This document shows, piece after piece, positions 12,356 through 21,663 of a stretch of 37,910 nt of DNA. The stretch is from NCBI GenBank assembly GCA_963169875.1, contig CAUJEL010000187.1:1-37910 (forward strand), written 5' to 3'. This stretch comes from Candidatus Zhuqueibacterota bacterium (GTDB lineage Bacteria > Zhuqueibacterota > Zhuqueibacteria > Residuimicrobiales > Residuimicrobiaceae). Made by a program: the position numbers and the translations under genes. The notes under the pieces are model-generated. The model was not told the DNA's origin and did not search any database. It worked only from the letters and a program-made list of their open reading frames with translations. How positions within the stretch are numbered: position 1 is the stretch's first letter; each line of letters opens with the position of its first letter.

Positions 12356-13081
12356 TCATGGCAATCGCCGCCCCGGCAGGCGCCACCACGGCGTGCGCGG
12401 ATAGAGATGATGTTCGAGGTGATAACCAAAGTGATAGCAGGTGAAAAAGGAGAGCCACACCGGATAGCCCGAACTGCGCGCCCGGTGTTCCGCATCCCGG
12501 GGTTTTCCCTTTTCCCGGTGCGGCAGATAGGTGCCAAAATAAAATAATTGCATCGTGCTCAGGAGAGCCGGCAAAACCCAGAAGATCAACAACCGCTCCA
12601 CGGAAATGCCCAATCCATATTGCAGCAGATTGAACAGCAAGGCCATGCCGGCTATCTGCCACCAGGTGATATAGTGCAACATGAAGCGCCAATACCAGCG
12701 CCCAAAACTCTCGTGTACGCCATCGTTGTAATCAGGGTCCCGGCTGCTGGCGGGATAGCTGTGATGCATGCCATGGCGGCGCTGCAGATTGCCGTAATGC
12801 ATCAGCGCATAGCTGAAAACCGCAACGCGTCCGATCCAGCGATTCAGCCTCAGGGAATAAGGCGCCACTGCATTATGCATGGCATCGTGGGCGGTGATGA
12901 AAAGACCGGTATATAGCAATGTTTGCAGCATTATGCCGGCCACGGCCAGGCCCCAAAAGAGAGGTGGACGGGACGGATGCAGCCAGAAACTCAGATTCCC
13001 CAGCCACAGCGCCAGGATCGTCAGGGCGATGAACGCGCCTGGCCCATTTTTTCCGGTACCCTGTTTTTTATTTTCGTTCAT
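12356..13081 (-). CDS. crtW: CrtW-type beta-carotene ketolase (membrane fatty-acid-hydroxylase/desaturase fold)
   Basis: 241 residues with hydrophobic segments and the His boxes of di-iron carotenoid ketolases: HDAMH (65-69), HGMHH (103-107) and HLEHH (221-225), plus RDPDYNDG (114-121) and FGTYLPHRE (182-190). The phrases LFITAHDAMH and CYHFGYHLEHH are characteristic of CrtW rather than of generic desaturases. It should add a 4-keto group to a beta-ionone ring. Last gene of the carotenoid operon; its ATG overlaps the stop of the CruF-like gene by 4 bases. No strong terminator follows. Confidence 0.88.
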   Translation of the reverse strand: MNENKKQGTGKNGPGAFIALTILALWLGNLSFWLHPSRPPLFWGLAVAGIMLQTLLYTGLFITAHDAMHNAVAPYSLRLNRWIGRVAVFSYALMHYGNLQRRHGMHHSYPASSRDPDYNDGVHESFGRWYWRFMLHYITWWQIAGMALLFNLLQYGLGISVERLLIFWVLPALLSTMQLFYFGTYLPHREKGKPRDAEHRARSSGYPVWLSFFTCYHFGYHLEHHLYPRTPWWRLPGRRLP

Positions 13082-13773
13082 CTACTGATCCACACTAAAA
13101 TAAAGTAGCACAACTGCGCCGCGTAAACATGCCCGGCGAGCGCGGGCAGCTTTTCGGCGAAGAGACGCAAACGCCACCCCAGAGCGGCATATGCCATGGA
13201 AAGGGCAAACCAGGCGAGGTAATTTTGCGCGGGTATCTCGCCCCCGCGCCAGGTCCAATAGCCCAGTTTCATGGCCGCCGGCTCCATGACCGCGTCGAAC
13301 GCCACCATGAGCACGGCTGTGGCCATGATGAACGCCAGCGCATGCCTGCGCAGCTTTTGCGGCAGCAGCCGCTGTGCCACCGCGGCCGAGGACCAAATCA
13401 TCACCAGCCAGGCAAATCCGATGGCGAGGGGCACCCCTGCCACCTGCGGCTGGAGGATCTGACCATAGTGGTAAGATCCAAATATCAAACCGCTGCGTAC
13501 ACCGTACCATTCAATGCAATGGGAGGTGGCCACGACCGCCAGGCTGTAGATCCAGGCCCTGCGCCTCCAGACCAGGGATGACCCGGGACCGGTCATAGCC
13601 ATCAGTGTAACCAAAGCAAGCGCCATCAGCATGGGGCCGGCCAGCAGCCGCATCAAATCCTGGAACCATCCCAGCACATGCCACAGTCCGCCCGCCAGCA
13701 GCAAAAAATAGAGCAGAAAGATGCGCCGGCGTTCTGCTGTGAAAAAAATCGACTCAAATCCATCGCGTTTCAT
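13078..13773 (-). CDS. cruF: CruF-like carotenoid 1',2'-hydratase (DUF422 family)
   Basis: 231 residues, a polytopic membrane protein with about seven hydrophobic segments. Diagnostic DUF422 motifs are IEWYGVRSG (87-95), FGSYHYG (98-104) and DAVMEPAAMKLGYW (160-173). The family includes CruF and the bisanhydrobacterioruberin hydratase, which add water across the terminal double bond of an acyclic carotenoid psi-end to give a 1'-hydroxy group. That hydroxyl is the usual attachment point for the sugar added by the neighbouring glycosyltransferase. Start and stop both lie in ATGA overlaps with the adjacent genes. A longer upstream frame exists but would overlap the glycosyltransferase by 120 bases. 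Confidence 0.82.
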   Translation of the reverse strand: MKRDGFESIFFTAERRRIFLLYFLLLAGGLWHVLGWFQDLMRLLAGPMLMALALVTLMAMTGPGSSLVWRRRAWIYSLAVVATSHCIEWYGVRSGLIFGSYHYGQILQPQVAGVPLAIGFAWLVMIWSSAAVAQRLLPQKLRRHALAFIMATAVLMVAFDAVMEPAAMKLGYWTWRGGEIPAQNYLAWFALSMAYAALGWRLRLFAEKLPALAGHVYAAQLCYFILVWISR

Positions 13774-14882
13774 CGCAAGGGCACCTGCCGCTCTTTCCAG
13801 ACGATGTTGCCGATCTGATAATAATAAAAAGAGGTCAAGCCCACGAGAATGGTCAGTAAGATGCCCAAAGGATGCAGGATAATCCCTTCCCAAAGCGGCT
13901 GCTTGTACTTGACGGCCAGCAGCCAGCGCAACAGGATATTAATGAGCACGGCCGGCCAGGCCCACGGGAAAAAGAACCGGCTCCAGATCAACAGGTACGG
14001 CAGGATAAAAATAAAAAACAGCAGGCCTAACAGCAGAAAGAACGGAAGCGTCTTGTATTCCATCAGGCCAAAGGCGTTCTTGGCGAAACCGTACCACACT
14101 TCGCGCCAGCTGTGATACATTCGTCCCATGACCGCGTCACGGCCCGAAGCTGTGAGGGTCTTGAGCCCAAGTCGTTTGGCGCGGCGGCTCAAGGCGGTAT
14201 CCTCGACAATCTGGTTTTTCACTGCAGCATGGCCGCCCACGGCCATGTAGCCTGGACGTGTGAACGCGATCCATTGGCCATTGGCCGCGGCCAGTGAAGG
14301 CTGGGGACTGCGGTAGGTTAAACGCAGGGGCAGAAACGCATACACGAAGAGATCGTAAACGGGTACGATGAGCTTTTCCGCCAGGGTGATGGTGATCTGC
14401 TGCGGAAACGCCGAGAAAAGCGCCAACTCCAGTTTTTGCATCCATCCCACCGTGCGGGAGACCGCAACAGGTGCGTAAAAATTATCGGCGTCGGTGAATA
14501 ACAAGATATCGCCCCGGGCGACGCGGCTGAGTTGGTGGCAAGCCCAGTTTTTTCCGGTCCAGCCGTGCGGCAGAGACTCGCCCTGGATCGATCTCACCCG
14601 CGCATCCATGGATGCATAGGCTTCCACCATTTCCAGAGTCTTGTCCCGGGAATGATCATCGAGGACGATGATCTCCAAATGGGGGTAATCCTGTGCGCAC
14701 AGACTGGCCAGGCAGGTCTGGATGTTGCGTTCCTCGTTGCGCGCGGGTACGAGCACTGAAACCAGCGGCGCCGCGGCGGGCTTGGGTCCACGCGCCACCA
14801 ACGGCGCTGTGAAAGCGTTGAACAGCGCCACCGCAAATGTCATCCCCAGCAGTGCATAGAGCACGATAAAAAAGAGGGTCAT
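13770..14882 (-). CDS. GT2 glycosyltransferase, probable carotenoid glycosyltransferase (CruC/CrtQ-like)
   Basis: 370 residues. An N-terminal membrane helix (1-22) precedes a GT-A domain with VSVLVPARNEERNI (41-54), the nucleotide-binding LDDHS (74-78), the metal-binding DADN (131-134) and an ED pair (227-228) as putative base. The GWTGKNWACHQLS stretch (108-120) is common in GT2 enzymes that glycosylate carotenoids and related lipids. Three or four C-terminal membrane helices follow (about 275-365). It probably transfers a hexose to the tertiary hydroxyl made by the CruF-like enzyme. AGGAGC precedes the chosen ATG, which overlaps the acyltransferase stop (ATGA). Confidence 0.8.
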   Translation of the reverse strand: MTLFFIVLYALLGMTFAVALFNAFTAPLVARGPKPAAAPLVSVLVPARNEERNIQTCLASLCAQDYPHLEIIVLDDHSRDKTLEMVEAYASMDARVRSIQGESLPHGWTGKNWACHQLSRVARGDILLFTDADNFYAPVAVSRTVGWMQKLELALFSAFPQQITITLAEKLIVPVYDLFVYAFLPLRLTYRSPQPSLAAANGQWIAFTRPGYMAVGGHAAVKNQIVEDTALSRRAKRLGLKTLTASGRDAVMGRMYHSWREVWYGFAKNAFGLMEYKTLPFFLLLGLLFFIFILPYLLIWSRFFFPWAWPAVLINILLRWLLAVKYKQPLWEGIILHPLGILLTILVGLTSFYYYQIGNIVWKERQVPLR

Positions 14883-15607
14883 TTTTCGCTCCTGTGCCAC
14901 AAACGCCGCCACTGCTGCCACCGGTCGCTGACCGAGGCATGACCGTGCAAGAGTTCACGGCCCTGTTCACCGGCCAAAATGCGGCCCTCCATGCGCTCCA
15001 GCAGAGCGGCGTGGGCTGCGTCCATTTCCGCCAGTTCGGGTGTCTGGCCGGCCGCAAGCGACAGCGGCTGGAATTCAAAGAATACGTCTGCATGCTGATG
15101 CTCGAGATACTCGATGCGGATGCCCAGTTGAACCACGTCGACGGCGGCGGGTGATTGCCGCAGCAGCCAGATGATGCCCGGCTTGTAACCCAGGGGCCGC
15201 ACCTGCGACCGCCGCAGTTCCCCCTGGGGAAAGAGGCAGAACATGATTTCCCCGGCTGCATGCGATGTAAAGACCGATCGCAGATAATTCAGCGAACTTT
15301 TGGCCGCCGCAAAGCCTTCGGTCTTGACTGAAAACACACCCAACCGCGCAAAGAAACGATGCTGTGACAGCTGTTCCTCCAGCATCATGAGATACGGTTT
15401 GCGCTGCCACAGACGTTCATTGAGCATATGGATGAAGAATCCATCCCACCAGCTGACATGATTGGGCAGAATGAACAGGGTTCTCTGCGGCGGCCACTCA
15501 GGCACCTCTCCGAGCAGATGGAAGCCATGAAAATGTCGCCGCATCAGGCGCATGACGTAGGGATGAAACAGAGCCTGCGCCCATTTGCTGTGGCGCGCGG
15601 GGATCAT
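14879..15607 (-). CDS. PlsC-like acyltransferase, probable carotenoid glycoside acyltransferase (CruD-like)
   Basis: 242 residues. The acyltransferase HX4D motif is NHVSWWD (H50, D55), and the block that is normally FPEGT reads FPQGE (126-130), followed by KPGIIWLL. No long hydrophobic helix is evident, suggesting peripheral membrane attachment. The family acylates glycerol phosphate, but members inside carotenoid operons acylate the sugar of carotenoid glycosides (CruD, CrtO of Staphylococcus by analogy). Location between phytoene synthase and a glycosyltransferase, with ATGA overlaps at both ends, supports that role. A general lysophospholipid acyltransferase remains possible. Confidence 0.75.
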   Translation of the reverse strand: MIPARHSKWAQALFHPYVMRLMRRHFHGFHLLGEVPEWPPQRTLFILPNHVSWWDGFFIHMLNERLWQRKPYLMMLEEQLSQHRFFARLGVFSVKTEGFAAAKSSLNYLRSVFTSHAAGEIMFCLFPQGELRRSQVRPLGYKPGIIWLLRQSPAAVDVVQLGIRIEYLEHQHADVFFEFQPLSLAAGQTPELAEMDAAHAALLERMEGRILAGEQGRELLHGHASVSDRWQQWRRLWHRSEK

Positions 15608-16476
15608 CGCCGCAGCCTTTCATGCAACAGGATGGACAGTTTTTGATGCATGGGCAGATAGGCCCGTCCGAGAAAGGGATTGTACCCCGTATGCTCGATC
15701 TTGCCGAGGATGCCGCGATAGATGCGGCTGGCTGCATAGATGGCAAAGCGGGATTCGTGGCTCAACAGAGGTATGCCGCGATCCGCCTCATCATAATAAC
15801 CATGAGCGCGCTGCACATGAAAGCGGATCAGATCCACCAGGGCCGGACTCAGCCGCTCCGCCATGATATCCTCTTCATCCACTTTATAGGCCTGCATCTC
15901 CTGCCGCGGCAGGTAGATGCGTCCCATGTTTTTGTCCTCCTGTATGTCGCGCAGGATGTTGGTGAGCTGCATGGCGATGCCGAGTTTCTCAGCCGGCGCA
16001 AATGCGGCTGCATCGCTATACCCGAGAATGTGGGTCATCATCAATCCCACCACCCCGGCGACGCGATAGCAAAAAACATACAGGTCGTCGAACGTCTCAT
16101 AGCCGGCGAACTGGATATCCATTTCGCAGCCGCGTAGCAGATCGAGCGGATACTCTATGGGAATCTCGTAACGCTGCGCTGCCACAATAAAGGCTTTGAG
16201 GATGGGATGTTCGGACTCGCCCGCTTCATAGGCATGGGAGAGTTCCTGGGCAAAACAGCTGATTTCCGCCAGCTGCTGCTCCTGCGTCCTCTTTCGCGGC
16301 AGGTCGATGAGGTTGTCGGCATAGCGGCAGAAACCGTAGAGGGCATAGGTCGCCCAGCGCCGTTCCGGAGGCAAAAACCGGGCGGAGATGTAAAAGCTCT
16401 TGGCATAGCGGGCGGTCAGACTGCGCGCATACTCAAAAGCGGGGTGCAAATTTTCATCTTGCCAGTATTTATCCAT
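15604..16476 (-). CDS. crtB: Phytoene synthase
   Basis: 290 residues, standard size for the squalene/phytoene synthase family. Two Asp-rich diphosphate-binding motifs are visible, DNLID (54-58) and DIQED (177-181), along with CRYADNLIDL, YCYRVAGVVG-like FCYRVAGVVGLMM (135-147) and LTNILRD (171-177). It condenses two geranylgeranyl diphosphates into phytoene. No GGPP synthase is in the window, so crtE must be elsewhere. It lies 15 bases downstream of crtI and overlaps the acyltransferase start by 4 bases. Confidence 0.93.
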   Translation of the reverse strand: MDKYWQDENLHPAFEYARSLTARYAKSFYISARFLPPERRWATYALYGFCRYADNLIDLPRKRTQEQQLAEISCFAQELSHAYEAGESEHPILKAFIVAAQRYEIPIEYPLDLLRGCEMDIQFAGYETFDDLYVFCYRVAGVVGLMMTHILGYSDAAAFAPAEKLGIAMQLTNILRDIQEDKNMGRIYLPRQEMQAYKVDEEDIMAERLSPALVDLIRFHVQRAHGYYDEADRGIPLLSHESRFAIYAASRIYRGILGKIEHTGYNPFLGRAYLPMHQKLSILLHERLRR

Positions 16477-16491
16477 ACGTCATTGATAGAA

Positions 16492-17979
16492 TTAGTTCAA
16501 ATCCTTGGCAATCACGGCATCTGTGGTCGCCGCCGTGAGCAGCACGCCGGGCACGCCGGCGCCGGGATGCGTGCTGGCGCCCACCAGGTAGAGACCGGCC
16601 ACATCCTCGCTGCGGTTGTGCGGCCGGAATATGGCTGTCTGGGTAAGCTTGGGCTCCACCCCCCAGGCGCTGCCGTACCAGGCATTCTGCTTTTTGCGGA
16701 AATCTTCCGGCGTGAAGACTTCCATGACATCGATATTCTCTTTCAAGTCCTCCATGCCAAAACGCTGCTCGAGATGATTGAGGACGTGCTGCGTCAGGGG
16801 ATGTGCCAATTCCGCCCAATTCTGCCCGCCCTGCAGATTGCTCACCGGGATGAGCACATAGAGGCTCTCGCATCCCGGCGGTGCCATGGTGTCGTCGCTG
16901 CGTGTGGGTGCGTGGAGATACATGGAGAAATCATCGGGCACGGTCTTGCGGTCAAAGATATCCCGCACCAGGCCCTTGTAACGGTGCGACAGGATCAACG
17001 TATGGTGCAACAGCTGCGGATAGCGCCGCTTCAGTCCCAGGTAGATCAGGACCGCACTCATGGAATAATCCACGCGCCGCAGCCGCCGATCGGTCCATTT
17101 GCGGCGATGCACTGCGGGGATGAGATCGCCATAGGTATGGAGAAAATCGGCGTTGGAAACCACCACCTCGGCTTCGTATTCCCGCGCCGCCGTGCGCACG
17201 CCTCTGGCGCGTCCCTGGTGCACGATGATTTCCTCGACTGGCTCGTTGGTGATAATATGACCGCCTTGCTCCAGAAACAGTTTTTCCAAAGCCTGCACCA
17301 GGCTATACATGCCGCCCTGACTGTACCACACGCCGCCGGTCTTTTCCAGATAAGGGATCATCTGGTAAACCGCGGGCGCGCGAAAGGGATTACCGCCGAT
17401 GAACAGGGGATGAAAGGAATAGATAAAGCGGTGCCGGAAATCCCTGAAATAGAGGCTGGCGAAGAGATGGGCCGGCAGAAAAGCGTTCAGCCGCAGCCCC
17501 CGGGGCATGAAAGAAAACATGGTGCGCCAATCCATGAAAGGCGTCCTGCCCATGCCTTCGCCGATGACGGCGTCGTAGAGATTTTTCGAGGCTGCCATAA
17601 ACGCATCGTAGCGGCCGGCGTCCTTGCGGCTGAACTGCGCCATTTGTTCGCGCATGCGCGCGCCATCGCTGCAGTAGTCGATGTGCGTACCGTCATGAAA
17701 ATAGATGCGGTAAAAGGGATCGAGGAGCTGCAGTTGCAAATAGTCCTTCATGGTACGTCCCGCAAGCTGAAAAATTTCCTCGATCAAGTCGGGCGCCGTG
17801 ATCAGCGAGGGCCCCATGTCAAAGGTGTATCCCTGACGCTGCAGGGGATAGGCGTGTCCGCCGGGTTTTGCGTTTTTTTCAAGGATGGTCACTGTGTGGC
17901 CGCGCGATTGCAGCCGGTTGGCGAGGGCCAATCCGCCGAATCCGGCGCCGATGACGACCACCTGTTTTTTATCTGCCAT
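16492..17979 (-). CDS. crtI: Phytoene desaturase (CrtI family)
   Basis: 495 residues. The N-terminal FAD-binding fold begins VVVIGAGFGGLALANRL (about 8-24) with the acidic end of the second strand (LEK, 33-35), then PGGHAYPLQRQGYTFDMGPSL. The C-terminal FAD-binding motif is GLYLVGASTHPGAGVPGVL (from 462), the standard CrtI signature. It performs the stepwise dehydrogenation of phytoene towards lycopene. It is 12 bases downstream of a second, divergent paralogue. Which of the two is the four-step phytoene desaturase is inferred from similarity and position next to crtB. A long plus-strand open frame across this gene is antisense shadow. Confidence 0.88.
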   Translation of the reverse strand: MADKKQVVVIGAGFGGLALANRLQSRGHTVTILEKNAKPGGHAYPLQRQGYTFDMGPSLITAPDLIEEIFQLAGRTMKDYLQLQLLDPFYRIYFHDGTHIDYCSDGARMREQMAQFSRKDAGRYDAFMAASKNLYDAVIGEGMGRTPFMDWRTMFSFMPRGLRLNAFLPAHLFASLYFRDFRHRFIYSFHPLFIGGNPFRAPAVYQMIPYLEKTGGVWYSQGGMYSLVQALEKLFLEQGGHIITNEPVEEIIVHQGRARGVRTAAREYEAEVVVSNADFLHTYGDLIPAVHRRKWTDRRLRRVDYSMSAVLIYLGLKRRYPQLLHHTLILSHRYKGLVRDIFDRKTVPDDFSMYLHAPTRSDDTMAPPGCESLYVLIPVSNLQGGQNWAELAHPLTQHVLNHLEQRFGMEDLKENIDVMEVFTPEDFRKKQNAWYGSAWGVEPKLTQTAIFRPHNRSEDVAGLYLVGASTHPGAGVPGVLLTAATTDAVIAKDLN

Positions 17980-17991
17980 GTTACCTGTCCG

Positions 17992-19470
17992 TTATCTGTC
18001 CTTTTCCATCAATAATTCCGCAGCCATTTTGCCGGAGAGCAGCACCAGCGGGATGCCGCCGCCGGGATGGCAGGCGCCGCCGGCGAAGTAGAGCCCGCGC
18101 ACATCGCGGCTGCGATTGGCGGGCCGGCGGAAAGCCATGCTCCGGGAGTTGCTGGAGATGCCATAAATGCTGCCGCGATTGCTGCTGTATTTTTCATAAA
18201 AATGAATCGGCGTCAAAACCCTTTCACAGGTTATGCGCCCCGATAAATCGATGCCGTGATCCCGCAGTTTTTTCAAAACGGTTTCGCGCATCTGTGGAAC
18301 AGCGGCTTCCCAATCCTGTCCTTCCGCGAGATAAGGCATGTTCAACAGCACAAACCAGTTCTCACCATCGGGCGGCGCATCCGCGGCATCAACCCGGTTG
18401 GTGATGGCGACATAGATGGTTGGATCATCCGGGGGGCGCCGCTGCTGAAAAATCTGCTCGAATTCGCCGCGATAATCTCTGGAGAAAAAGATATTATGCT
18501 GCAGCAATTCCGCATGATGGCCTTGAACACCCCATAAAAAGACCAGTCCGGAAAGGGAGGGTTCGAGGCGATTCAGTTGTGAACGTCTTCGCGGCGCCTC
18601 CTCGATCAGCTCATTGAACGCGGTCACCACATCCGCGTTACACACCACGCGTTCACAGGTGATGGTTTCGCCCTGCGCCACAATGCCGGCGACGCGGCCG
18701 TTCTGCTGCAGAATGCGCGAAACCCTGGTGTTGGTGTGAATCTCCACACCCAACCGCCTGGCCAATTCTTCTAACGCATTTACCAGGCGATACATTCCAC
18801 CGCGCACATAATAGGCGCCCAATCCATATTCAACATGAGGAATGATATTCAGCGTCGCCGGCGCCTGATAGGGATTGGAGCCGTTATAGGTCGCATAACG
18901 GTCAAACAACTGCAGGACTTTTTTATTCTTGAAAAAGCGCGCCAAACCGCCATGCACGGTGCGGAAGGGATCGATGGCGGGCAGGGAGAGCAGGGTTGGC
19001 ACATGCCGCCAGCGCAGCAGCTTGCGCCATTCCTGGATGGGGGTGAAGAGGAACACCTCCGCCGTGGTATCATAAATTTTCCGGCTGTAGGCGAGAAAAT
19101 CGCGCAACCGCTCCCCGTCGGGGGGCGAGAAAGAGGCGAGGGCGGCGCGCATTTTTTCGACATCGTGGCTGGCGTCGAGACGCGTGCCATCGGGAAAAAA
19201 GTAGCGGCACATGGGTTCCACGGGAACCAGGTCGAGGAAATCACCACGCTGTAAGCCTGCGGCGGTGAAAAGTTCGTCAAGGACAAACGGCATGGTCAGC
19301 AGCGACGGCCCGGTGTCGAAGCGAAATCCGTCCTGGCGGATTTCGCCCATCTTGCCGCCCAGTTGGGCAGTCTGTTCATACAAAGTGACTTTATAATCCT
19401 GCTTCGCCAGCCGGATGGCCGCGCTCAATCCCGCGAGACCGCCACCAATGACAGCCACCTGTTTACGCAT
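17992..19470 (-). CDS. crtD: CrtI-family carotenoid desaturase, probable CrtD (3',4'-desaturase)
   Basis: 492 residues, paralogue of the adjacent phytoene desaturase. FAD motif VAVIGGGLAGLSAAIRL (about 5-21), then LGGKMGEIRQDGFRFDTGPSLLTMP; C-terminal GLYFAGGACHPGGGIPLVL (from 459). In operons with a CruF-like hydratase the second CrtI homologue is usually CrtD, which introduces the 3',4' double bond next to the hydroxylated end; CrtN-like or CrtOx (oxygenase) functions are alternatives. I chose the ATG at 19470, which has AGGCGG upstream and overlaps the cyclase stop by 8 bases; another in-frame ATG at 19491 would extend it by 7 residues. Confidence 0.78.
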   Translation of the reverse strand: MRKQVAVIGGGLAGLSAAIRLAKQDYKVTLYEQTAQLGGKMGEIRQDGFRFDTGPSLLTMPFVLDELFTAAGLQRGDFLDLVPVEPMCRYFFPDGTRLDASHDVEKMRAALASFSPPDGERLRDFLAYSRKIYDTTAEVFLFTPIQEWRKLLRWRHVPTLLSLPAIDPFRTVHGGLARFFKNKKVLQLFDRYATYNGSNPYQAPATLNIIPHVEYGLGAYYVRGGMYRLVNALEELARRLGVEIHTNTRVSRILQQNGRVAGIVAQGETITCERVVCNADVVTAFNELIEEAPRRRSQLNRLEPSLSGLVFLWGVQGHHAELLQHNIFFSRDYRGEFEQIFQQRRPPDDPTIYVAITNRVDAADAPPDGENWFVLLNMPYLAEGQDWEAAVPQMRETVLKKLRDHGIDLSGRITCERVLTPIHFYEKYSSNRGSIYGISSNSRSMAFRRPANRSRDVRGLYFAGGACHPGGGIPLVLLSGKMAAELLMEKDR

Positions 19471-20143
19471 GGTTCCGCCTGTATTTTTCATAGATCGAGG
19501 TGCAACCGAGGATTAAGCTGAATCCATAGAGGAAATCTTCAACGGGAATGGTGTAGAGACGGATATCGAGCTGATATTGGGCCTGATAGAGCACGACCGG
19601 ACGGGCGGTGAGATAGCCGTTAAAAATAAACATCAATGCGGTCAGAAGGATTGCATACCAAAGGACGTTGGCCCGCGTCAAAACGCGTCCGCCCCGGGTG
19701 AGATCATACCAGGCCGTGATGGTGAGCGCGAAAAAGACCAGAGCAGTGTACTCCTTGCCCAGGCAGGCGAACATCAGGGCCGGCGCGAATCCAATGGCCA
19801 GCCACAGGGGATGAATCCCGGCGCCCGGCAGAGCGCCTCTGGGGCGGTAGTGCCGCAGCACATCCCAGACAAACAGCGAGGCAAAAGGCACGCTCAAAAA
19901 AAAGAGCCATTCGCCCAGAGGCAGGGCGCCGATGAACGTTCCGGCCGTATAGACCGGATTGAACCACCAGTGCCGGTCCGTGACCAGCCAATCCCAGATG
20001 ATGAAAAGGGCCATAACAGGCAGGATGGAAAGCAAAGCGTGGCGCCACTGCCGGACGAAGCGCAGTTGGCGGTCAAAACTCAGGAGTACAGGTCCCATGA
20101 GGACCACCAGGTTGAACAGAATATACTCAAGGTGTGTTGGCAA
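19463..20143 (-). CDS. crtYcd: CrtYcd-type (fused heterodimer) lycopene cyclase
   Basis: 226 residues, about six or seven membrane helices, made of two CarR-type lycopene cyclase repeats. The C-terminal repeat has the usual motif PVEDFLYG (200-207). In the N-terminal repeat the equivalent PLEEW motif reads PLGEW (75-79), with Gly in place of the first acidic residue. The family, found in Actinobacteria, Bacteroidota, archaea and fungi, converts the psi-ends of lycopene into beta-rings; a one-ring product would fit the rest of the operon. No ATG fits the family N-terminus, so I chose the TTG at 20143, which overlaps the upstream gene by 17 bases and has a GGAAGA-like site. Confidence 0.83.
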   Translation of the reverse strand: MPTHLEYILFNLVVLMGPVLLSFDRQLRFVRQWRHALLSILPVMALFIIWDWLVTDRHWWFNPVYTAGTFIGALPLGEWLFFLSVPFASLFVWDVLRHYRPRGALPGAGIHPLWLAIGFAPALMFACLGKEYTALVFFALTITAWYDLTRGGRVLTRANVLWYAILLTALMFIFNGYLTARPVVLYQAQYQLDIRLYTIPVEDFLYGFSLILGCTSIYEKYRRNHA

Positions 20144-20705
20144 GCCCCAGTTCTTCCTTTAACTGTTGCAGCAGCAGTTGTCCATCTTCGTCGAGATGCG
20201 CTTTTTCTGCAATAAACAGCACAACATTGCGAATCATTCCCGGTTCATAGGCCTGAAAATGCCGGGGGAGTAATTGCAGGATCGTGCGAAATTTTTCCTG
20301 GGCATCTTTGCCGCGGTTGAAAAAAAAGGGGAGGAAATAGCAGGTGGAGCTGTGGATGAAGAGCGCTTCGATATCGTCCGGCGCCTGCGCCACGCCTTCA
20401 TCCATGATGGCGATGCCGCGCTTGGCCAGATGCAGCTTGTCATGGGGCCAGAAGGCGTGTTTGCCACGGAGCGCCTCGACGGCACCGATATAGGTCAGGG
20501 CACGGCCGGCCAGGGCGGGATAATCCCTGCGGATAGCCTGAAAAGCCGCCAGAGCGGGTTCGATCTGCTTTTTATCAGTGACACTGGCATAAAATAGATT
20601 TCTGGCGACGTGGAGTTGAAGCGAAAGGGTATCTGTTTGCGGAAAAACAGCAGAACAAGATAGCAGCACGATTAAGACCGGTAAGCGGTTTCTCAGCTCC
20701 AGCAT
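20127..20705 (-). CDS. Exported protein of unknown function, first gene of the carotenoid operon
   Basis: 192 residues, not recognised. The N-terminus is a signal peptide; either a lipoprotein with Cys17 (LLSC) or a protein cleaved near residues 22-24. The remainder is helical, with alternating ALAAFQAIRRDYPALAGRALTYIGAVEAL and EKFRTILQLLPRHFQAY stretches that suggest two or three degenerate TPR-like helix pairs. It overlaps the lycopene cyclase by 17 bases, so it is tied into the operon. A periplasmic protein in a pigment operon could act in pigment delivery or membrane organisation, but nothing in the sequence proves it. Confidence 0.75.
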   Translation of the reverse strand: MLELRNRLPVLIVLLSCSAVFPQTDTLSLQLHVARNLFYASVTDKKQIEPALAAFQAIRRDYPALAGRALTYIGAVEALRGKHAFWPHDKLHLAKRGIAIMDEGVAQAPDDIEALFIHSSTCYFLPFFFNRGKDAQEKFRTILQLLPRHFQAYEPGMIRNVVLFIAEKAHLDEDGQLLLQQLKEELGLANTP

Positions 20706-20751: not shown

Positions 20752-21663
20752 TCATTGCGGCGGCCCCGGTGGCGGTGGTTCTTCGTGCAAACGCTGTTGT
20801 TCTTTTAAACGTTCCTCCTCGTGCGCTCTTTTTGTCTCCTGGAGGATGGAATCCTCAATGGCTATGCCAAATTGTTTGGCCATGACGGACCATTTCGCCA
20901 CCTGATCCAGGACACGCCGCAATGAGTCGTTGCTCATGACATGCTTCAACTCAAGCTCGCGGTGCTTTTGTTCCCATTCCAGCCAGCGTTTCTTTTCCAA
21001 TTCTTTGAATTTCCGGGCCAAATCGGAATTCTCATCGCCCAAGGCATCGCGCAGCGTCGCATCGACCCGGACGGTCAACCCGCTATCGGTGGGCGAAAAA
21101 TAATATTTTTGCCGGATGATGTGCTTCTTATCAGAGACACGCGCCAGTTTTTCCATCTGCTTTTGGAAATTTTGCATGCTGCGCAAGCGCTCGGCCATTT
21201 CTTCGGGTGTATAAGTCCGGACCATTTTGGGAGGACGTTTGAGAACGATGGGTTGGCTTTCCAGGGCTGGGGCGGCTATATTGATGTGATAACCGTCCTG
21301 CCCCGGTGAATCCACTTTCATGACAACGTCTGGCGCCTCCATTGTCAACAGCGCCAGGGCTTCTCTGCCGGAGATGAGGGAGTCTTTGCTGCTCAAATTC
21401 AAAATCTGTGCGGCAACGTCTTCCACCTGCTCCGGCGGAATTTCCTGTGCTTCGGCCCTGTTGACAAAAAGTTCGTAATTTTTTTCCAGTTCGTGTTTTT
21501 CAGAATCATCACGGACAGCGTTGAAGAGCTGGGCGCCCAGTGCTTCCAGGGTGGGCCGCAGCACCTCTTTTTTGGTCTGTTTATCACTGACCATGAGGAG
21601 AAAAATAGCTGTTGAAATTCCCAGCACAAGCATGGTCAAGGCAATTTTTCGTAGCCAATTCAT
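20752..21663 (-). CDS. Membrane-anchored coiled-coil protein of unknown function
   Basis: 303 residues, not recognised. One N-terminal membrane helix (about 7-25) anchors a soluble domain that probably faces the periplasm. The middle (about 65-165) is mixed; the C-terminal third (about 190-290) is rich in Glu, Lys, Arg and Leu (FKELEKKRWLEWEQKHRELELKH), typical of a long coiled coil, ending in a proline-rich tail (PPPPGPP). GGAGGAG lies about 10 bases before the ATG. The carotenoid operon begins 46 bases downstream on the same strand, so read-through is possible. Confidence 0.75.
   Translation of the reverse strand: MNWLRKIALTMLVLGISTAIFLLMVSDKQTKKEVLRPTLEALGAQLFNAVRDDSEKHELEKNYELFVNRAEAQEIPPEQVEDVAAQILNLSSKDSLISGREALALLTMEAPDVVMKVDSPGQDGYHINIAAPALESQPIVLKRPPKMVRTYTPEEMAERLRSMQNFQKQMEKLARVSDKKHIIRQKYYFSPTDSGLTVRVDATLRDALGDENSDLARKFKELEKKRWLEWEQKHRELELKHVMSNDSLRRVLDQVAKWSVMAKQFGIAIEDSILQETKRAHEEERLKEQQRLHEEPPPPGPPQ

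Follow-up and report, generated by a model that had tools for sequence, protein, structure and literature searches.

For most bacteria, we know of no described route by which carotenoids or flexirubins reach the membrane in which they reside. The flexirubin/aryl-polyene type of gene cluster has been described, and flexirubin itself is an outer-membrane pigment (PMC3992019; PMC11885536). The carotenoid cluster of Chryseobacterium lacus holds a hypothetical gene (RS06200) between crtB and crtZ, light-induced along with the crt genes, and is flanked by the gene for a lipocalin-type outer-membrane lipoprotein (PMC7064467); Rhodothermus marinus has a small operon of four genes, namely crtB, crtI, cruD and one unassigned gene, and a CruF/CrtC homologue is reported absent from this bacterium (PMC5822342). 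Periplasmic TPR-like helical proteins include TatT (Tp0956; the T-component of TPAT) and BstC, which binds a terpenoid lipid (PMC10942540). Among open-access papers, we found none that joins carotenoid lycopene-cyclase gene clusters with a tetratricopeptide repeat (TPR) protein, and we provisionally regard the family presented here as undescribed.

The window, that is, the whole stretch of DNA analysed, comprises 37,910 nucleotides of a Candidatus Zhuqueibacterota contig (CAUJEL010000187.1), and it encodes one member of this family, referred to here as the query. We suggest that this family is probably a common accessory of several pigment pathways, with a part in handling coloured lipids at the cell envelope. 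With homologues in both types of pigment cluster, and fusions in places to the first carotenoid enzymes, this exported protein would be a single candidate for pigment placement; hypothetical genes of many crt and flexirubin clusters in Bacteroidota could then be given a provisional role.

A TPR-like protein in the carotenoid operon of the window

The carotenoid operon of the window consists of nine genes on the (-) strand. It starts with the query gene (20127-20705), followed by a CarR/CrtYcd-type lycopene cyclase (19463-20143; PF18916, E 2e-28; TIGR03462, E 2e-26), a CrtD-like carotenoid desaturase (17992-19491; NF042421, E 6e-125, under cut-off; TIGR02734 above cut-off), a phytoene desaturase of the CrtI family (16492-17979; TIGR02734, 546 bits), a phytoene synthase of the CrtB family (15604-16476; SQS_PSY, E 5e-78), an acyltransferase (14879-15607; PF01553), a CruG/HpnB-like glycosyltransferase (13770-14921; PF00535; TIGR03469 and NF045692 under cut-off), a CruF-like carotenoid hydratase (13078-13893; PF04240, E 9e-29) and a CrtW-like beta-carotene ketolase (12356-13081; NF045690, 279 bits vs. 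a cut-off of 350). The operon has no dedicated exporter gene. As the preliminary description of this DNA had it, the query ORF, starting with ATG, encodes 192 aa and overlaps the ORF of the cyclase, whose identity the PF18916 and TIGR03462 matches bear out, by 17 bases; the overlap is identical in a sister genome. The same description placed the gene at the head of the operon, which holds for 8 of 18 loci, where the upstream neighbour is divergent, and is less clear in the window, where an ORF on the same strand (20752-21663) precedes it by 46 bp. This ORF encodes 303 aa, an N-terminal hydrophobic segment and then a charged remainder, belongs to no family and has matches in near relatives only (58% in L021, 43% in L024).

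The N-terminus of the query resembles a signal peptide (approximately residues 1-23; 20637-20705); it contains the hydrophobic segment LPVLIVLLSC and forms the low-confidence end of the AlphaFold model. We scored such a segment as a 10-residue mean hydropathy of at least 2.0 inside the first 30 residues and found it in 18 of 20 core, 18 of 18 Bacteroidota-carotenoid and 14 of 14 flexirubin-type homologues; since it is kept in nearly all of them, export looks like a property of the family. The earlier proposal of a signal peptide agrees with this; the accompanying suggestion of a lipoprotein anchored through Cys17 was rejected, as the cysteine is not conserved and the other homologues have no genuine lipobox (the one further match to the lipobox pattern, in L021, is positioned before its hydrophobic stretch).

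AlphaFold modelled the query as an all-helical protein (pLDDT 91.6, pTM 0.83) with eight helices after the signal (residues 24-43, 45-61, 63-83, 87-107, 112-124, 132-152, 155-168 and 173-185), and a flexirubin-type homologue was predicted to share this fold class (pLDDT 88.8). TPR structures came out on top when the query model was compared with PDB folds, with weak scores (E >0.02, TM 0.3-0.5), and no PDB fold matched either model under E 1e-3. Like TPR proteins, the query model appears to have paired helices, and its distant relatives (alignment A2) score above the Pfam cut-offs for TPR_16 and other TPR models and align with the query family (alignment A1) over 105 columns (hhalign E 8e-23); unlike them, the query matches no TPR profile above its curated cut-off (the best E values among A1 members are 0.04-0.4). 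The degenerate TPR-like helices of the preliminary description agree with the model and with the relatives, if not with a profile match in the query itself. The query matches no Pfam or NCBIfam family, and Pfam, NCBIfam and PDB sequence searches found no family for it or for the carotenoid and flexirubin sub-alignments; one match of a sub-alignment to a designed protein (6e-05) was discounted, as it covers 26 columns only and has no matched stretch of its own. The predicted fold may be described as a generic TPR-like solenoid; no function is assigned to it. No viral contig carried a query homologue, and a viral fold search returned nothing significant.

The query also differs from TPR proteins in that its helix turns carry conserved inserts, and many of its invariant residues lie in or beside two of these loops. 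The first, KHAFWPHDK (residues 82-90; 20436-20462), is flanked by model helices 63-83 and 87-107, and its P87 and K90 are invariant across the 20 rows of the core alignment; the second, the aromatic loop LPFFFNR (residues 125-131; 20313-20333), is flanked by helices 112-124 and 132-152, and its P126, F128 and F129 are likewise invariant. By pattern, the first loop occurs in 18/20 core, 11/18 Bacteroidota carotenoid and 0/14 flexirubin members, and this retention in most core members together with its absence from the flexirubin subfamily suggests a possible part in the choice of pigment or partner.

We also compared the query with described periplasmic carriers. LolA-like carriers have the half-barrel LolA/LolB fold, in contrast to the all-helical model of the query, and no LolA model matched it. 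The flexirubin-type model has weak fold matches to the PTPIP51 TPR domain, the TPAT protein 8g53 and the bacterial sterol transporter 7t1s (E 0.17-0.6 for the latter two). TatT and BstC share with the query a TPR-like helical character and, as predicted for the query, a periplasmic location; unlike the query, they work with TRAP or Bst partners, which are absent from the query loci, and Pfam and PDB sequence searches found no sequence likeness to TatT (PF16811) or BstC.

The family is linked to the lycopene cyclase across phyla

Strong matches to the query were found in 20 of 60 related genomes (its own counted), the others at 37-68% identity, and the query homologue and the cyclase are adjacent in 18 of these 19 other genomes, with an insert between them in one. 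A profile search of the related genomes added a divergent member adjoining the cyclase (G051) and confirmed a fragment adjoining it in G018, and a later search added one further member (G025). A scan of 84,980 species genomes, which has several assemblies in common with the 19-genome set, returned 37 loci, chiefly from Poribacteria and candidate division KSB1, the remainder being from Calditrichia, Ignavibacteria, Kapaibacterium and Bacteroidetes. In 35 of the 37, the homologue lies directly upstream of the lycopene cyclase, the next downstream crt gene; the two exceptions are a Kapaibacterium locus, where it precedes CrtD, and a Bacteroidetes locus, which is at a contig end. The commonest gene order is that of the window (query-cyclase-CrtD-CrtI-CrtB-acyltransferase-glycosyltransferase-CruF-CrtW), and in most loci with a readable cyclase ORF, the two reading frames share 4-17 bases.

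The linkage to pigment genes holds across several phyla at 35-60% identity. Within the class, a carotenoid-type member always comes with the cyclase: 23 of the 34 cyclase-bearing genomes have such a member, and none of the 26 cyclase-less genomes does (Fisher 1e-8). Two loci (L031 and L033; genomes G057 and G041) present an isolated query-cyclase pair, with no other crt genes of the window within 18-19 kb; the G052 contig is too short to judge such isolation. Several sister genomes have the cyclase operon and no query homologue. At L088 and L089 (genus g23), where the cyclase operon is present and the query absent, the operon adjoins a divergently transcribed 163-aa gene and a 713-746-aa gene.

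The members in G051 and G025 belong to a Bacteroidota-type cluster, where they stand between crtB and another small gene that is followed by the cyclase (in G025, this small gene encodes a fatty-acid-hydroxylase-family protein). With the G051 protein as query, 247 genomes from the phylum of a Bacteroidetes locus yielded members in 48, and a profile search of the same genomes yielded them in 52 (48 without four marginal hits). The core and Bacteroidota carotenoid sets are homologous as judged from profile comparison along their full length (hhalign E 1e-31). Among Bacteroidota genomes with a cyclase above cut-off, 27/54 have the family (Fisher 3e-9) and 27/54 do not, and 22 of the 27 with both have the member within about 3 kb of the cyclase. 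Many of these homologues have crtB on one side and crtZ or the cyclase on the other, a slot that C. lacus RS06200, a candidate member by position, also occupies. A strict need of the cyclase for the query was rejected, given the 27 of 54 Bacteroidota genomes and the several sister genomes that have the cyclase without it; the family is accessory, and dispensable in some Bacteroidota and sister genomes.

Fusions place the query domain beside carotenoid synthesis

Three genomes (G088, G093 and G240) carry an operon that encodes a query homologue, an acyltransferase, CrtI and a fused CruF-CrtB protein of 583-586 aa, and two more (G115 and G304) carry a single ORF of 847 and 853 aa, respectively, that reads CruF, CrtB, a hydrophobic stretch and a C-terminal query domain (profile E 1e-31 and 3e-29). 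The CrtB with an N-terminal CruF-like multi-TM domain was located at L168:7314-9074, L169:7097-8857, L171:9601-11352, L170:7302-9845 and L173:7337-9898. The two longer proteins are 50% identical across 819 residues, so the fusion is not one assembly error. The hydrophobic stretch, clear in G115 and weaker in G304, is apparently the former signal peptide. CrtB resides in the cytoplasm, so with the hydrophobic stretch between them, the query domain of the fusions would lie on the periplasmic side; cleavage at the internal signal may still be possible. The fusion ties the query domain to the carotenoid synthesis complex. As to the enzymes themselves, the CruF-like domain of the fused CrtB is 30-33% identical to CruF, and the content of the G088, G093 and G240 operons fits the published small operon of Rhodothermus marinus; if the fused loci are Rhodothermus-like, this domain may be the missing hydratase.

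A flexirubin-type subfamily and a transporter-associated outgroup

A second Bacteroidota group, of approximately 161 aa, occurs in a constant operon that is of flexirubin/aryl-polyene type by gene content, its genes including those for a ketosynthase, a deacetylase, LolA, a 211-aa gene in the LolB-like position, an OMP barrel, a FabA/ApeI-like dehydratase, the query homologue, a GT2-DUF2062 protein, an MMPL-acyltransferase and an FAD oxidoreductase. This content matches the described cluster type. Profile comparison relates the subfamily to the query set (hhalign E 7e-10). The small gene of these flx/dar-type loci, with their LolA and LolB-like genes, is thus like the query in being homologous, apparently exported, of the same predicted fold class and part of a polyene cluster; it is unlike the query in being shorter, in lacking the first loop and in serving a cluster of other pigment chemistry. 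On the tree, the 14 flexirubin-operon members fall together in a single supported group within the carotenoid-linked part of the family, with moderate inner support and with one member from a KS/ABC cluster (L174) on a long branch. This nesting suggests that the family was recruited from carotenoid to flexirubin clusters. Homologues are found overwhelmingly in clusters of these two kinds, beyond the CruF/CrtW-type operons for which co-occurrence had been proposed as a check, and conserved adjacency to the CarR/CrtYcd cyclase or to CrtB recurs in the 37-locus, 19-genome, Bacteroidota and fusion data. The original idea would have lost ground had most homologues lain away from pigment operons, or had the fold been one of established, unrelated function; we found neither.

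The sister family on the tree, an outgroup of mostly exported TPR proteins, resembles the query in these respects and differs in its company, which is of transporters and not of pigment enzymes, bar L045. At L042-L044, L176 and L178, these proteins adjoin an ABC ATPase, an FtsX/MacB permease and LolA-like genes, a module that has the look of a so far undescribed system for lipid transport in the envelope. The module also includes a protein of approximately 427 aa and of no known kind. Another outgroup member (L040) has an AcrB-type gene as its neighbour. At L045:4083-10585, an outgroup-type TPR protein lies between HMG-CoA reductase and a TonB-dependent receptor, in the vicinity of an RPE65-type carotenoid oxygenase, CruF and CrtW.

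A proposed role in pigment handling and its alternatives

We propose, at about an even chance of being right, that the query is an exported TPR-like accessory of polyene-pigment biosynthesis that works at the periplasmic face of the carotenoid complex, where it receives or steadies pigment or organises the complex. The signal peptide suggested by the conserved N-terminal segment would carry the protein across the inner membrane; it would then act near the lycopene cyclase and CrtB, on the periplasmic side of the membrane complex that makes carotenoids, and receive or steady the nascent lipophilic pigment, perhaps through its two proline/aromatic helix-turn loops, before the pigment is handed to the outer leaflet or onward toward the outer envelope. 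The flexirubin company, the LolA, MMPL and ABC genes and the exported N-terminus all speak for a protein that handles or delivers pigment. The light induction of the same-slot gene of C. lacus together with the crt genes (PMC7064467) lends independent support. The functions first put forward (pigment delivery, outer-membrane loading or membrane organisation) are thus partly supported; delivery to the outer membrane is plausible, with the fusion pointing to an inner-membrane complex. A broader and more tentative possibility is that carotenoid and flexirubin clusters of Bacteroidota, KSB1-type bacteria and Poribacteria share a family of periplasmic TPR-like pigment chaperones that take polyene lipids from inner-membrane complexes and start their outward transport; if true, this would explain in general terms how coloured lipids get out of the inner membrane.

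The most serious competitor, though a somewhat doubtful one, is that of a pure scaffold: on the periplasmic side, the TPR-like domain would attach to the cyclase and CrtB/CruF and cluster or stabilise these enzymes without touching the pigment. TPRs are classic protein-binding modules, and the frame overlap with the cyclase, the isolated query-cyclase pairs and the CruF-CrtB fusion would all fit such a scaffold. The flexirubin subfamily, however, lacks these enzymes as neighbours, so that its partner would need to be another; what carotenoid and flexirubin clusters share is not an enzyme but a lipophilic, membrane-lodged polyene, and this tips the balance toward pigment handling.

A soluble, LolA-like carrier in the periplasm that brings the completed pigment to the outer membrane is unlikely, although it would suit the outer-membrane residence of flexirubin (PMC3992019; PMC11885536), the LolA, MMPL and OMP genes of flexirubin clusters, the ABC, FtsX and LolA-like genes of the outgroup and the fold likeness of the flexirubin-type model to 7t1s and 8g53. 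Those fold matches are not significant, flexirubin clusters already encode a LolA while carotenoid operons have no exporter, and the CruF-CrtB fusion suits an inner-membrane anchor; together with the reading-frame overlap with the cyclase, the CrtB fusion makes work at the inner membrane likelier than that of a free shuttle.

It is very improbable that the query regulates the crt operon or senses light or stress for it, a role put forward for the same-slot gene of C. lacus: light co-induction has been reported there (PMC7064467), and the gene is first in several operons, but Pfam and NCBIfam searches found no DNA-binding, receiver or anti-sigma domain, the N-terminus appears exported, and the protein is fused to enzymes. 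That the gene merely hitch-hikes in the operon or neighbours it by coincidence, which would agree with the pathway running without it in many genomes, is contradicted by the multi-phylum linkage, the two pigment types and the gene fusions and has next to no chance of being right.

Two narrower ideas were also set aside. A link to glycosyl or acyl transfer is unsupported, as crtI-crtB-query-crtZ loci (L118, L141 and L144) have no such enzymes nearby. Acylated keto-carotenoid glycosides serve xanthorhodopsin, and a rhodopsin antenna was considered and rejected, as none of the 60 relatives has a rhodopsin above cut-off. Finally, two Bacteroidota crtZ-cyclase clusters that have no query homologue encode a 164-aa protein in the position before crtZ (L180:5508-6002 and L181:5491-5985), which by eye resembles an SRPBCC/START-type domain; START-type proteins include known carotenoid binders.
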